Source: Pseudomonas oryzihabitans
GTDB lineage: Bacteria > Pseudomonadota > Gammaproteobacteria > Pseudomonadales > Pseudomonadaceae
Length of the DNA stretch: 64,000 nucleotides
Assembly: GCF_001518815.1 (NCBI RefSeq)
Contig: NZ_CP013987.1
Coordinates: 4,052,501-4,116,500 of the forward strand
Direction of reading: 5' to 3'
The translations under genes and the position numbers were made by a program. Shown here one piece after another: positions 10,799-30,878 of this stretch. How positions within the stretch are numbered: position 1 is the stretch's first letter; each line of letters starts with the position of its first letter. A model generated the notes under the pieces. That model was not told where the DNA came from and did no database searches. It was given only the letters and a program-made list of their open reading frames with translations.

Positions 10799-11806
10799 AT
10801 GCACGCCATACGCCTACGCAAACCCGGCGGTCTGGACCAGCTGGAACGCTGTGAACTGCCCGATCCCGGTCAGCCCGGAGCCGGCGAGATCCGTGTGCGG
10901 ATCAAGGCCAGCTCGCTGAATTTCCATGACCTGGGCGTGGTGCTGGGCAAGATGCCCGCTGCCGACGGTCGCATTCCCATGTCCGATGGCGCCGGTGTCG
11001 TCGAGGCGGTGGGCGCCGACGTCAGTGAGTTCGCCGTGGGCGATCACGTGGTCTCGACCTTCTTTCCGCACTGGCTGGACGGCGAGCCGCCCATCGACGA
11101 CTTTTCCACCACCCCCGGCGATGGCGTCGACGGCTTCGCCTGCGAGGTAGTGGTGCGACCGGCCACCGCCTTCACCCGAGCGCCCAAGGGCTACAGCCAT
11201 GCCGAGGCGGCGACTCTGACCACCGCCGGTCTCACTGCCTGGCGCGCCCTGGTGGTGGACGGCAATCTCAAGGCCGGCGACAGCGTGCTGGTGATGGGTA
11301 CCGGTGGCGTCTCCATCTTCGCCCTGCAGATCGCCAAGGCCATGGGCGCCACGGTGATCGCGACTTCCTCCTCGGACGAGAAGCTGCAGCGCGCCTATGC
11401 CCTGGGCGCCGATCACCTGATCAACTATCGCAGCGAACCCGAGTGGGGCGCCAAGGTCCAGGCCATCACCGGCGGACGCGGCGTCGACATCGTGGTGGAA
11501 GTCGGCGGTCCGGCGACCCTGGCGCAATCCATCCAGGCCGCGCGCATCCATGGTCACCTGGCGCTGATCGGCGTGTTGACCGGGGTCGAAGGCCAGGTGC
11601 CCACCGCCAATCTGATGCGCCGTCACCAGCGACTGCAAGGCCTGATCGTCGGCAGCCGCCGTCACCAGCAGGACATGATCCGCGCGCTGGAAAGCACTGC
11701 AATCAAGCCGGTCATCGATCGCAGCTACCCGCTGGAGGAGATCGCCCAGGCCTTCGCCTTCCAGAAGGATGGCAGCCATTTCGGCAAGATCGTCCTGGAG
11801 TTCTAA
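10799..11806 (+). CDS. NAD(P)-dependent alcohol dehydrogenase/quinone oxidoreductase family (MDR)
   Basis: A 335-residue medium-chain dehydrogenase/reductase. It has a GroES-like N-terminal domain and the nucleotide-binding motif GTGGVSIFALQIAKAMGA near residues 168-185. The [11 protein letters not shown] block is present, but the zinc ligands of classical alcohol dehydrogenases are missing (no GHE motif and no four-cysteine lobe). It is therefore likely a zinc-free reductase acting on quinones, enones or similar carbonyls in the cytoplasm. GGAGG lies about ten bases before the ATG. It is not obviously linked to its neighbours. Confidence 0.85.
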   Translation: MHAIRLRKPGGLDQLERCELPDPGQPGAGEIRVRIKASSLNFHDLGVVLGKMPAADGRIPMSDGAGVVEAVGADVSEFAVGDHVVSTFFPHWLDGEPPIDDFSTTPGDGVDGFACEVVVRPATAFTRAPKGYSHAEAATLTTAGLTAWRALVVDGNLKAGDSVLVMGTGGVSIFALQIAKAMGATVIATSSSDEKLQRAYALGADHLINYRSEPEWGAKVQAITGGRGVDIVVEVGGPATLAQSIQAARIHGHLALIGVLTGVEGQVPTANLMRRHQRLQGLIVGSRRHQQDMIRALESTAIKPVIDRSYPLEEIAQAFAFQKDGSHFGKIVLEF

Positions 11807-11851
11807 AAATCGTCAGACGAATGCAGGGCGTAAGGTGAAACAGCTCTGCTA

Positions 11852-11888
11852 GACTTCCGGAACCGCCGCATCGCGTGTTCCGGAAGTC
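11852..11888 (+). promoter_or_regulatory. Hairpin covering the ribosome binding site of the receiver gene
   Basis: Two perfect 12-bp arms, GACTTCCGGAAC (11852-11863) and GTTCCGGAAGTC (11877-11888), enclose a 13-base loop and end 3 bases before the ATG at 11892. The only Shine-Dalgarno-like sequence (GGAAG) is inside the right arm. In RNA this would be paired. It could be a translational switch, an operator, or both; a TAGACT -10-like hexamer overlaps the left arm. Confidence 0.75.
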
Positions 11889-11891
11889 CCG

Positions 11892-12284
11892 ATGACCCTG
11901 CCCTCCTCCCCGCCCTACGTCGTCGTCATCGAAGACAACGGGATGCTCGCCGAACTGCTGGGCAACCATCTCGAAGAACGACTGCAATGGGCGTGCACGC
12001 GCTTCGACAATGCCGACGATGCCCTGGTGCATCTACTGCAGCAGCAGGATGCTCCTGCCCTGGTGATCACCGATCACCTGATGCCCGGTCAATTGCACGG
12101 CGGCGAACTGGCGCAGATGCTGTTGCAGCGCTGGCCTGAATTGCCGATGGTGATCACGTCCGGCTATGGCTACGAAATCACCACGGCGTTGCCACCCCAG
12201 GTGATCTTCCTGCAGAAGCCCTGGACTCTGGATGAAGTGGATTCGGCGGTACGCCTCGCACGAGCGCGTCAGGCGGTCGGTTAG
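11892..12284 (+). CDS. Stand-alone response regulator receiver domain protein
   Basis: A 130-residue single receiver domain with no output domain. The acidic pocket is IEDNG near residue 14 (E-D), the phospho-acceptor is Asp61 in LVITDHLMPG, the conserved Ser is in VITSGYG, and Lys is in FLQKPW. It would be phosphorylated by a kinase and act through protein contacts, like CheY or an intermediate in a phosphorelay. It ends with a 4-base overlap with the convergent receiver gene at 12281, and a hybrid kinase lies 600 bases away. Its start codon sits directly after a 12-bp hairpin, suggesting controlled translation. Confidence 0.88.
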   Translation: MTLPSSPPYVVVIEDNGMLAELLGNHLEERLQWACTRFDNADDALVHLLQQQDAPALVITDHLMPGQLHGGELAQMLLQRWPELPMVITSGYGYEITTALPPQVIFLQKPWTLDEVDSAVRLARARQAVG

Positions 12285-12664
12285 ACGCCCAACTGGCCGC
12301 AGGCCTTCAGCAACTGGTCGATGGTCCAGGGCTTGGGCAGGAACAGCGCCCGGTCTTCACGTTCGGCATATTGCTGGCCGGTATACCCGGAGGACACCAG
12401 GATGGGCAACTGCGGAAACCGTTGGCGGACCTGTTTGGCCAGGGCGAGCCCGTCCAGTTGACCGGGCATGCGCACGTCGGTGAACAGCAGATCAGGTGGC
12501 AGCGGGTCGGCTTCGAACCAGCACCAGGCGGCATCGGCGGTGTCGAACGACTGGACGGCATAACCTTCCATTTCGAACACCTCCGTCGCCAGCGATCGCA
12601 GTACGGGATCGTCTTCGACGACCAGCACAGTGGTAACGGCTGCGGAAGAAACTACATCGGTCAT
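12281..12664 (-). CDS. Stand-alone response regulator receiver domain protein
   Basis: A 127-residue receiver-only protein. It has VVEDDP for the acidic pocket, Asp63 in LLFTDVRMPG as phospho-acceptor, VSSGYTG and FLPKPW. It resembles both the receiver at 11892 and the receiver fused to the kinase at 12909, and lacks any DNA-binding part. It is divergent from the hybrid kinase gene, with a 244-base shared upstream region, and overlaps the other receiver by 4 bases at the 3' end. It probably works with that kinase as a phosphate acceptor or sink. This is inferred from position. Confidence 0.9.
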   Translation of the reverse strand: MTDVVSSAAVTTVLVVEDDPVLRSLATEVFEMEGYAVQSFDTADAAWCWFEADPLPPDLLFTDVRMPGQLDGLALAKQVRQRFPQLPILVSSGYTGQQYAEREDRALFLPKPWTIDQLLKACGQLGV

Positions 12665-12678
12665 GGCAACGCTACTTC

Positions 12679-12693
12679 ATTAGTACGACTAAT
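12679..12693. promoter_or_regulatory. Inverted repeat between receiver and hybrid kinase genes
   Basis: Perfect 6-3-6 repeat ATTAGT-ACG-ACTAAT, in an AT-rich patch 15 bases before the minus-strand receiver start and 216 bases before the kinase start. It is placed as an operator or promoter element for the divergent pair. No known regulator is assigned. Confidence 0.4.
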
Positions 12694-12908
12694 TAGACCG
12701 AATTTACTCGAATTGGATCACAACACTCGGATAGGCGGCTGGTCGCTTTCCGCTAGCACTTGTCTGATGCCCGCGCGACGACTTAATTCCCAGTCGCTCG
12801 AAAAAAGAGTCAGTGAATCCCTGGCCGTCCTCGGACTCTTTAACTCTAAGGCTCTCGCTGGACGCTGTTGGCGTCCTCCCTCTGCTGCTAACGCGTTCGA
12901 ACGACCTC

Positions 12909-15830
12909 ATGGCTGAATCCGATCTGTCCTACGCTGAACTCCAGGCGGAAGTCCGCCGCCTCCGTACCGCGCTCGACCAGTGCACCGCGTTGCCCGCCCA
13001 GGACGCCCAGCGGCGCTTGGCGATCTTCGACGGCGCCATCGACTTCGCCATGGTCGTGCTCGACCCCACCGGAATAATCAGCGACTGGAACAGCGGTGCC
13101 GAACGCCTGCTGGGCTGGACGGCGGAGGAGATCCGCGGCGCCCCGGCCGAGCGCTTCTTCACCCCGGAAGACAACCAGATCGGCCGGGCGACGCTGGAAA
13201 TGCAACTGGCCCTGCGAGATGGCCGCGCCGAGGACGAACGCTGGCATCTGCGGCGCGACGGCAGCCGCTTCTGGGCCAGCGGCGAAATGCATCCGCTGCA
13301 CGATGACGCCGGGCGCCATACCGGCTACGTCAAGATCCTGCGGGACCGCACCGCCCAGCACCTGGCGGGCCAGGCCAAGCACGATGAAGAAGGCTATCGC
13401 CGGGCGCTCGCCGAACTGGCTGAAGGTTTCAGCCACCTGAACGACACCGACGCCGTCACCGAACTCGCCTGTGCCACCCTAGGCACTACCCTGGATGCCC
13501 ATCTGGTGGGCTATGGGCTGGTGGATGACGACGCTGAAACCATCCGGGTGGAACGCGACTGGACGGCGCCGGGCACCCGCAGCCTGATCGGCACCCTGAA
13601 TTTCCGCGACTACGGCAGCTGCATCGAGGATTTCAAGCGCGGCGAAACCGTGGTGATCGAAGAGGTCCGCGAAGATCCGCGCACCCGGGCCAATCTTGCG
13701 GCCCTGGAGCAGCTGGACACCCGTGCCTTCGTCAACACCCCGCTGTTCGAACATGGGCACTTCGTCGCCCTGCTCTATGTCAGCTCCCGCCATCCACGGC
13801 GCTGGACGGCGGCCGAATTGCGCTTCATCGGCGAGGTGGCCAATCGCACTCGCTCGGCAACGGCACGGCTGACCGCCGAGCATGCCCTGCACGACAGTGA
13901 GCTCAACCTGCGCCTGGTGGCCGACACCCTGCCCTGCCTGATCGCCTTCGTCGACCGCGCCCTGGTGTATCGCTTCGCCAACGCCGAGGCGCCCAAGTGG
14001 TTCAAGAACGCCCCGGACAGCATCCTTGGCCGCAGCATGGCGGAGGTCTTCGCGCCAGAGCTGTTCGCCGCCCGCCGCCCGGCCATCCAGGCCGCACTGG
14101 ACGGTACCCCGGCACGGCTCGACCTGCCCTGGGCCTGGCCGGACGGCCGCCGGCGCATCGCCGATATCCACTACCGCCCACGGCGCGACGCCCGGGGCGC
14201 GGTGGATGGCTTCTATGTCTTCGCCCAGGACGTCACTGTCCAGCGCGACGCCCAGGCGCTTATCCAGGCGCAGAATTTCAGCCTCAGCCAGGAGGTCCAG
14301 GCACGTACCGCCGAGCGTGACCGTCTCTGGGCACTCAGCGAGGACCTGCTGCTCACCGCCGACTTCACCGGGCAACTGCTCCGGGTGAGTCCGTCCTGGT
14401 CACGCGGGCTGGGCTATTCCGAGGCGGATCTGCTGAGCCGTCCCTATCCCGAGCTCATCCATCCTGACGATCTACCCGGGGTCCTGGCAGCGCTGGATGA
14501 ACTGCGCCGCAGCGGGCTGCCGACCCGGGTGGAGAATCGGGTCCAGGCGGCGAATGGCAGCTGGCGCTGGCTGGCTTGGACCCTGTCGCTGGACCTCGAT
14601 CAGGAGCACCTCACCGGGGCCGGTCGCGACATAACCCGGGAAAAGGAGGCCATGGAGACCCAGGCCGTGCTGGAAGAGCAACTGCGGCAGTCGCAGAAGA
14701 TGGAAGCGGTCGGCCAACTCACCGGTGGCCTGGCCCACGATTTCAACAACCTGCTCGCCGGCATCGTCGGCAGCCTGGATCTGCTCACGCTGCGCATCGG
14801 CCAGGGTCGGCTGAACAATCTCGAGCGCTACACCACGGCGGCCCAAGGCGCCGCCATCCGCGCCGCCGCCCTGACCCACCGCCTGCTGGCCTTTTCCCGC
14901 CGGCAGACGCTGGATCCCAAGCCCACCGACGTCAATCGCCTGGTGGCCGGCATGGAAGACCTGATCCGCCGCACGGTGGGTCCGGCGATCCAGATCGAAG
15001 TGGTGGCCAGCAGCGATCTCTGGTCAACCCTGGTCGATCCGCCTCAGCTGGAAAACGCCCTGCTCAACCTCTGCATCAACGCCCGCGACGCCATGCCCGA
15101 AGGCGGGCGCATCTTCATCGAAACCGCCAACCGGGTACTGGATTCCCGCATGGCCCGGGTGCGTGATCTGGAGCCGGGTGAATACATCGCCCTGAGCGTG
15201 ACCGACAACGGCTGCGGCATGCCACCCGAGGTGATCGCCAAGGCCTTCGATCCCTTCTTCACCACCAAGCCGATCGGCGTGGGCACCGGCCTGGGCTTGT
15301 CGATGATCTATGGTTTCGTCCGCCAGTCCGGTGGCCAGGCGCGCATCCATTCCCAGGTCGACCAGGGCACCAGCGTCACCCTGTTCCTGCCACGGCATCG
15401 CGAAGCCGCAGCCAGCGCCGACTCCGCCATCGCCCAGCCGGCCCTGCCCCGAGTCGGTCATGGCGAGACGGTGCTGGTGGTGGATGACGAGCCCACGGTG
15501 CGGATGTTGGTCGTCGAGGTACTGGAAGAGCTGGGCTACGCGGCCCTGGAGGCGGCGGATGCCAGCTCCGGGCTGCGACTGCTGGAGTCCGACGTGCGCA
15601 TCGACCTGCTGGTCAGCGACGTCGGCCTGCCTGGCGGCATGAATGGTCGACAGATGGCCGACGCCGCGCGGCAGCGCCGCCCGGGGCTGAAGGTACTGTT
15701 CATCACCGGCTACGCCGAGAACGCCGTGGTCGGCAACGGCCACCTGGAACCAGGCATGCACGTGATGACCAAGCCCTTCGCCATGGACGCCCTGGCGGTG
15801 CGCATTCGCGATCTGATCGAAGGGACCTGA
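12909..15830 (+). CDS. Hybrid sensor histidine kinase with PAS, GAF and receiver domains
   Basis: A 973-residue soluble hybrid kinase without membrane segments. In order: a PAS domain (about 35-150, [20 protein letters not shown]), a GAF domain (about 165-320), two further PAS domains (about 330-450 and 470-590), a dimerisation/phospho-acceptor domain with His610 in [11 protein letters not shown], an HATPase domain ([28 protein letters not shown]), and a C-terminal receiver with Asp904 in [11 protein letters not shown]. It should sense cytoplasmic cues such as light, redox or small ligands; a chromophore cysteine is not evident. The ATG at 12909 has no clear ribosome binding site. Two free receivers lie directly upstream. 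Confidence 0.9.
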
Positions 15831-25133: not shown

Positions 25134-25690
25134 TATCGCGGCCATGGGCCGCTCCTACAAGATAGTCGGCTGCTGTAGGAGCGGCCCATGGCCGCGATTT
25201 CAGCAAGGCTCAGGTCTATCCAACGTTGGGCTTCGCTTGCGCTCAACCTAACCTACAAAGGCTCAGGTCGTAGCGTGGAAAACCGCAGAGCGTTTCCCGC
25301 TGGCAACCCTTAACCGCCGAAGCCCAACATCCATAGGAGCAACCGTCCTTATCGCGGCCATGGGCCGCTCCTACGGATAGCCGGCTGCTGTAGGAGCGGC
25401 CCATGGCCGCGATTCCAGCGAGCTCAGGTCTATCCAACGTTGGGCTTCGCTTGCGCTCAACCCAACCTACAAAGGCTCAGGTCGTAGCGTGCAAAACCGC
25501 AGAGCGTTTCCCGCTGGCAACCCTTAACGGCCGAAGCCCGACATCCATAGGAGCAACCGTCCTTATCGCGGCCATGGGCCGCTTCTACGGATAGCCGGCT
25601 GCTGTAGGAGCGGCCCATGGCCGCGATTCCAGCGAGGTCTAGGTCTACGCACCGTTGGGCTTCGCTTGCGCTCAACCCAACCTACGCAGC
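25134..25690. repeat. Tandem 215-bp array carrying REPIN pairs (2.5 copies)
   Basis: Copies start at 25134, 25350 and 25564; the third is cut off after its family A element at 25654-25685. Each unit begins with a family B REP in inverted orientation and a second in direct orientation 15-16 bases later (25135-25158/25175-25198; 25351-25374/25390-25413; 25565-25588/25604-25627). Each B element is GTAG then GAGCGGCC, CAT, GGCCGCGAT. Family A elements follow at 25225, 25439 and 25654, and family C elements at about 25269 and 25484. The unit is not a CRISPR: no regular short repeat or unique spacer pattern. 25041-25133 holds nothing recognised. Confidence 0.9.
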
Positions 25691-30583: not shown

Positions 30584-30811
30584 GTAGGTTGGCGCCGAGC
30601 GCAGCGAAGCCCAACATTACAGTGCGTCCAGCCTGGCTTATCGGCGCTCTGGCTGCTTAGCGAGGTTTGGGGGGAGATGCTGTTCGAGACAAGAACCACC
30701 AGCAGCCCTCTATAACCCACCAGGGCCCTATAGCTAACCCTCAGCAATCGCGGCCATGGGCCGCTCCTACAGGTTCGGATTAGACCTGTAGGAGCGGCCC
30801 ATGGCCGCGAT
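30584..30811. repeat. Family A REP and a family B REPIN
   Basis: A family A element lies at 30584-30615, just after the phosphatase gene. A REPIN is formed by family B elements at 30747-30770 (inverted) and 30788-30811 (direct). Their ends are linked by AGG ... CCT, so the two palindromes fold into one long hairpin. The rest of 30571-30878 holds nothing recognised. Confidence 0.85.
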
Positions 30812-30878
30812 TGGCGATGCTCCATTTTCCGTAGGAACGGCAATATCGGCGGACAATCAGTGAGCCCCCGCCGTACCC

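Follow-up and report, generated by a model that had tools for sequence, protein, structure and literature searches.

In RNA thermometers of the ROSE and fourU types, the ribosome binding site (RBS) lies in a hairpin. In the protection of the IS10 transposase from outside transcription and in the start-site switching of pyrC, a transcription start in or near the 5' arm decides on the hairpin that hides the RBS. For T4 gene e (PMC3014915) and I-TevI (PMC2988022), reviews describe a longer early RNA that is structured over the ribosome site, and a late-promoter RNA without the 5' part of that structure. Here we describe an inverted repeat in front of a stand-alone receiver gene on a bacterial chromosome. 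Its hairpin most likely (probability roughly 0.45) silences only RNA running in from the upstream gene qor, with RNA from the receiver's own promoter being translated.

The locus lies in the window, by which we mean the whole 64,000-nt stretch of DNA analysed, and the source genome is grouped with Pseudomonas oryzihabitans by its named relatives. The qor gene, whose best NCBIfam match is quinone_pig3 with a score under the cut-off, is co-directional with the receiver gene, and its stop codon precedes the left arm of the repeat by 45 nt and the receiver start by 85 nt (Table 1). We found receiver orthologues with 73-100% identity in 10 of the 13 genus genomes; at 10/10 of these loci the 3' end of qor adjoins the element, and in 10/10 of the genomes the receiver orthologue has a convergent receiver match as its neighbour. 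Other genera gave no receiver match at E <= 1e-28 among the 148 family genomes searched, and a plasmid search returned only short matches, located in the oxidoreductase gene where annotated.

Further features were seen in the neighbouring genes. The stop codons of the two convergent receiver genes overlap (window 12281-12284). An inverted repeat, ATTAGTACGACTAAT, stands at window 12679-12693, immediately 5' of the second receiver gene (minus strand); its core TTAGTACGACTA is identical at 9/9 aligned loci, and it may serve as a promoter or an operator. A possible AAAGAGTC/GACTCTTT stem in the histidine kinase leader (window ~12804-12842) is not shared by the aligned relatives.

Table 1. Coordinates of the receiver element and its neighbouring genes in the window
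Feature	Position	Strand	Remarks
qor, zinc-type quinone/alcohol oxidoreductase	10799..11806	+	Pfam ADH_zinc_N and ADH_N
Variable spacer, qor stop codon to promoter element	11807..11846	+	Mean pairwise identity 0.48 (11807-11844)
Extended -10, TGCTAGACT	11847..11855	+	TGC 11847-11849, hexamer TAGACT 11850-11855; runs into left arm
Left arm, GACTTCCGGAAC	11852..11863	+	Contains self-palindrome TTCCGGAA 11855-11862
Predicted transcription start, within left arm	11861..11863	+	By inference, ~6-8 nt past the -10 hexamer
Loop, 13 nt	11864..11876	+	Sequence drifts; short inner helix predicted in 10/10 orthologues, very weak in G008
Right arm, GTTCCGGAAGTC	11877..11888	+	Contains self-palindrome TTCCGGAA 11878-11885
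GGAAG, weak Shine-Dalgarno-like, in right arm	11882..11886	+	GGA invariant, 10/10
Receiver, stand-alone receiver-domain response regulator, 130 aa	11892..12284	+	Pfam Response_reg 41.1 bits, residues 10-120
Second stand-alone receiver, convergent with first receiver	12281..12664	-	Pfam Response_reg 72.6 bits
Hybrid PAS/GAF histidine kinase, C-terminal receiver	12909..15830	+	ATG 12909; listed from GTG 12813

An earlier note on this DNA had described perfect 12-base arms ending three bases before the start codon, with GGAAG in the right arm as the only Shine-Dalgarno-like bases. We found the same: the two 12-nt arms are perfectly complementary with 13 nt between them, their coordinates agree (11852-11863 and 11877-11888), CCG separates the right arm from ATG 11892, and by eye no Shine-Dalgarno-like bases other than GGAAG are suitably spaced from the start. 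That note mentioned neither the self-palindrome TTCCGGAA in each arm (the left and right boxes) nor the extended -10 element TGCTAGACT running into the left arm, and its reading overall is partly supported by what follows.

The RNA of 11840-11940 folds at -34.9 kcal/mol (z = -3.97), and 0/200 shuffles are equally stable. The 45 nt before the receiver start, at -26.5 kcal/mol, fall under all 297 sampled ORF leaders, among which the longest perfect arm is 11 nt (the sample covers 400 kb of the same genome, with ORF starts picked by a crude rule). Repeats with perfect arms of at least 12 nt and a loop of 3-30 nt number eight in the window, this one included, compared to an average of 0.35 in 20 order-1 Markov surrogate windows; at least four of the eight are one REP-like family. 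The exact box pair is found once in the 4.83-Mb genome. Two copies of TTCCGGAA per 64 kb are unremarkable alone (0.52 expected, and 11/100 shuffles reach two); the remarkable aspect of the two boxes is their spacing and their place.

The REP-like palindromes of the window share ATCGCGGCCATGGGCCGCT and lie at 25135-25198, 25351-25413, 25565-25627 and 30745-30813; a palindrome similar to this family stands directly before L050:1470. A second recurring palindrome is formed by inverted repeats sharing CGAAGCCCAAC at window 36579, 45935 and 52881. The receiver element itself was considered as a REP-type or other dispersed palindrome and rejected, since its paired motif is single-copy (exact matches only). 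It was also rejected as an intrinsic terminator, since there is no T run past the stem, where CCCGATGACC stands instead.

The element is present in all 10 genus genomes that carry the receiver (13 genomes searched). In the ten-row alignment, mean pairwise identity is 0.90 for the block 11845-11855 vs. 0.48 for the spacer after the qor stop, 0.81 and 0.92 for the left and right boxes, 0.52 for the loop, and 0.64 for the right flank; TTCCGGA of the right arm is invariant (10/10). The positions of the boxes relative to the -10 element and the start codon are nearly fixed in 10/10 species while the loop drifts, and box-to-box spacing ranges from 21 to 24 nt among the orthologues. Present in 10/13 genus genomes, the repeat is a real, conserved regulatory element.

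The conserved block entering the left arm has the sequence TGCTAGACT in eight species and TGCTAAGCT in the other two, without a recognisable -35, and its CTGCTA is invariant at 10/10 orthologous loci. This conservation, set against the variable spacer upstream, favours a promoter belonging to the receiver and with it the silencing of read-through RNA only; a P. putida study (PMC11784136) gives CTATACT as the RpoS -10 motif. Against such a promoter, a scan requiring a -35 found 0 classical -35/-10 sites between qor and the receiver. A scan of the same interval for terminators found 0 terminator-like sites, and upstream of the -10 element we found no conserved or promoter-like block.

In the genome at large, TGCTANACT is rarer than its reversed control (18 vs. 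46 copies), and this scarcity, too, weighs against an own promoter. Its copies are concentrated before genes, which argues for one: 9/18 precede a start codon by 15-70 nt vs. 2/30 for the reversed control (Fisher p = 0.001, counting the 30 of the 46 control copies available as loci), and 8/17 do so without the receiver locus (p = 0.002). The counting rule was automatic, i.e. the distance to the start codon of a retained ORF, and was applied alike to both motifs. Hand reading puts further TGCTANACT copies at plausible gene starts (L074, L076, L081 and L082), and we prefer the automatic 9/18 because its control was counted identically. For CTANACT in a 400-kb sample, 5/17 copies are in the upstream zone (0.60 expected), compared to 1/29 for the control TGATCANCT (1.03 expected). 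The longer motifs are absent from the sampled upstream zones (TGCTANACT 0/1, TGNTANACT 0/2, TGNTANAAT 0/2), which also speaks against the promoter, with too few copies to judge. By its placement before genes, TGCTANACT acts like a promoter element in the source genome.

Several of the TGCTANACT copies in the source genome (L067-L084) precede genes with RNA-, translation- or helicase-like N-termini, and we take the genes behind these copies to resemble KsgA, Orn, RsgA, PrfC, DbpA and ABC-F. In G008 (L005/L037), an extra 10-bp hairpin, GCAGAGCCGC/GCGGCTCTGC, ends just before TAGACT.

With the -10 hexamer at 11850-11855, the predicted transcription start falls within the left arm, at about 11861-11863; hence, most of that arm would be missing from the receiver's own mRNA, whose ribosome site would be partly open. 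The earlier note had taken the site to be closed as RNA. This would hold for RNA that spans both arms, whereas the native mRNA is probably not closed, as the -10 element reaching into the left arm is conserved and predicts a start inside that arm, a position that the note itself had listed as refuting its reading. That the native site is permanently closed is unlikely because of this predicted start and because TGCTANACT is promoter-like genome-wide.

Predicted folds of the two RNAs show this contrast and favour silencing of read-through RNA only. The Shine-Dalgarno bases are predicted to be unpaired at 0.00-0.02 in the read-through RNA of 8/10 orthologues, the window included, and at 0.31-0.69 in the own-start RNA of 9/10; the window itself gives 0.50 when folded from 11861 and 0.00 when folded from upstream. 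By genome, the predicted read-through/own-start values are 0.00/0.50 (G000), 0.00/0.52 (G011), 0.26/0.35 (G003), 0.00/0.69 (G006), 0.45/0.44 (G008), 0.00/0.31 (G001), 0.02/0.56 (G009), 0.02/0.49 (G007), 0.01/0.47 (G010) and 0.01/0.08 (G012). Departing from the contrast, and thus counting against the reading, G008 is predicted to be equally open in both RNAs, the read-through RNA of G003 only partly closed, and G012 mostly closed either way.

In the mechanism that we favour, the receiver would have its own extended -10 promoter, with both hexamer and start site inside the left arm. RNA from ~11861-11863 would retain no more than the final one to three bases of this arm and hence form no hairpin, and it would be translated via the weak GGAAG site. 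Read-through RNA from qor would hold both arms, fold very stably, hide the ribosome site, and remain untranslated. Since own RNA would be open and read-through RNA closed, translation of the receiver would depend on the promoter from which its RNA comes. What the analysis establishes is the repeat, how well it is conserved, the conserved promoter element and the predicted folds; we infer where transcription starts, that RNA reads through, that translation is lost, and what the arrangement is for.

Base pairing survives sequence change in several relatives, which favours this mechanism. In a hand-registered table, two outer pairs are swapped on both sides in G010 and G012 (G-C to A-T and A-T to G-C), as one lineage and beside an unpaired base; G009 carries a matching extra T-A pair, and the inner stem end has wobbles in place of pairs. 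On the other side, the same table has unrepaired breaks: G003 has a T-T mismatch, G008 two neighbouring mismatches and G007 an unmatched base, and G007 and G009 both show an inner T-T. Pairs left unrepaired in these four genomes and in G010 and G012 weigh against the favoured mechanism, as does RNAalifold, which on the plain alignment gave 9 pairs, none changed on both sides, with four rows out of register. Overall, the hand-registered pair count leans towards RNA structure.

Observed loops are more stable than shuffled loops (sum -210.1 vs. -183.4, sd 6.7; 0/1000, evidence that related rows overstate), which favours a role as RNA, although the single-species fractions are only 0.025-0.236. 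Shuffling the right flank lowers stability, with 0/1000 reaching the observed sum and single-species fractions of 0.005-0.141.

The main rival, which is possible and in our judgement rather doubtful, is that a dimeric regulator binds the two TTCCGGAA boxes as DNA and represses or tunes the receiver promoter, with one box over the -10/start region and the other 21-24 bp downstream. The RNA hairpin would then be a by-product, because the same palindrome occurs twice. An operator at the transcription start had been offered by the earlier note as well, and part of what we found agrees: each box is self-palindromic, a property superfluous for arms that only hide a ribosome site and a better fit to an operator, a repressor on the left box would be in the way of RNA polymerase, and the boxes keep their place relative to the -10 element and the start codon as the loop drifts. 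TTCCGGAA is scarce, with 33 genomic sites vs. 205 for the reversed sequence; hence, two copies 23 nt apart are striking.

What did not appear is a set of targets. We sought a regulon of TTCCGGAA boxes in the source genome and the genus genomes and found none among the sites examined, a result that favours silencing of read-through RNA and at the same time leaves room for a single-target regulator. The exact box pair has no second locus in the source genome. The looser pair, TTCCGGA, matches at 14 further places in the 13 genus genomes: the seven that we inspected are all internal to open frames of 100 aa or more, and the other seven are identical or almost identical in sequence to inspected ones. 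Of the 31 other single boxes we inspected 15; on one strand or the other, 14 are covered by an open frame of 150 aa or more, although GC-rich DNA makes this test a weak one. The -10-plus-box pattern has 13 matches in the genus, 7 of them the receiver locus. Three of the other six were examined: in G004 the match lies shortly 5' of an exported-looking protein, in G009 it coincides with the end of a gene whose downstream neighbour, presumably LeuD-like, begins 22 nt further on, and in G008 it lies inside open frames. The two matches near gene starts thus concern unrelated genes in single genomes each.

Other results also speak against an operator. The qor, receiver, second receiver and kinase products all lack a DNA-binding domain match, and the two Pseudomonas papers found for TTCCGGAA do not concern such a site, judged by title and abstract opening. 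Spacings of 21, 22, 23 or 24 nt would alter the helical phase of two bound boxes, whereas they are easily tolerated by a hairpin loop, and the pairing of flank and loop is left unexplained. The two readings are not mutually exclusive: an operator is compatible with a hairpin that silences read-through RNA.

Improbable in our view is a conditional RNA switch, in which the native RNA begins before the left arm and its closed site is opened by temperature, a small RNA or a protein, as the earlier note had suggested. A strong conserved hairpin across the ribosome site is what such a switch would have. However, the conserved -10 element penetrates the left arm and predicts a start inside it, and nothing conserved or promoter-like stands upstream of that element. 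The stem is also far too stable, with a predicted energy of -26.5 kcal/mol at 37 °C, -24.2 kcal/mol at 42 °C and still -20.8 kcal/mol at 50 °C, and Rfam gave no match up to E = 1 across 11500-13000. Since loop identity is only 0.52, there is no obvious ligand or small-RNA seed. An RNA thermometer or riboswitch was rejected on the stability of the stem, the lack of an Rfam match, and the start that is probably inside the left arm; temperature control, in particular, is unlikely.

We give still less weight to the idea that the stem acts mainly on the qor mRNA, by stabilising its 3' end or by providing a processing or termination site. The stem does lie 45 nt past the qor stop, in an interval with no terminator-like site. 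No T run follows it, however, the terminator scan was empty, and a function at the qor 3' end would leave unaccounted for the near-fixed position of the boxes relative to the -10 element and the start codon in 10/10 species. Least probable of all is pairing without selected function, i.e. a promoter and a weak ribosome site complementary by chance: the unrepaired breaks in several species would suit it, but identity is 0.81 and 0.92 in the two boxes compared to 0.48 in the spacer and 0.52 in the loop, and the stability exceeds that of all 297 sampled leaders.

Taken a step further, and more tentatively, silencing of read-through RNA would make this a case of promoter-coded translation in a chromosomal two-component gene, in which the left arm is the promoter and the palindromes possibly double as an operator. 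If true, a phage-type insulator would sit within a bacterial regulatory gene and have been maintained across a genus, and a tightly packed signalling gene would be shielded from its neighbour's leaky transcription without a terminator. It would also follow that the promoter should be located before an RBS-hiding hairpin is named a thermometer or a riboswitch, and that a -10 element in the left arm together with an RBS in the right arm could serve as a search rule for insulators in bacterial chromosomes.

Among the matches listed in our literature search, no title describes the receiver element, and its closest counterparts are the systems introduced above. Like the ROSE and fourU thermometers, it has its RBS in a hairpin; unlike them, its stem is a perfect 12-bp helix, far too stable, and its transcription start is probably inside the left arm. 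Unlike the IS10 case, the element is not at a transposon end, and in contrast to both IS10 and pyrC, a start shifted by one or two bases would leave the receiver stem unrestored. The likeness to the T4 gene e and I-TevI leaders is one of logic only. The element differs from them in lying on a bacterial chromosome, in having an extended -10 rather than a T4 late promoter, in its co-directional metabolic gene upstream, and in its self-palindromic arms. By that logic, the receiver element would work as they do: the ribosome site lies in a stable RNA structure, RNA from an upstream promoter is closed (as predicted here), and the gene's own promoter gives an RNA without the 5' portion of the fold (again as predicted here).
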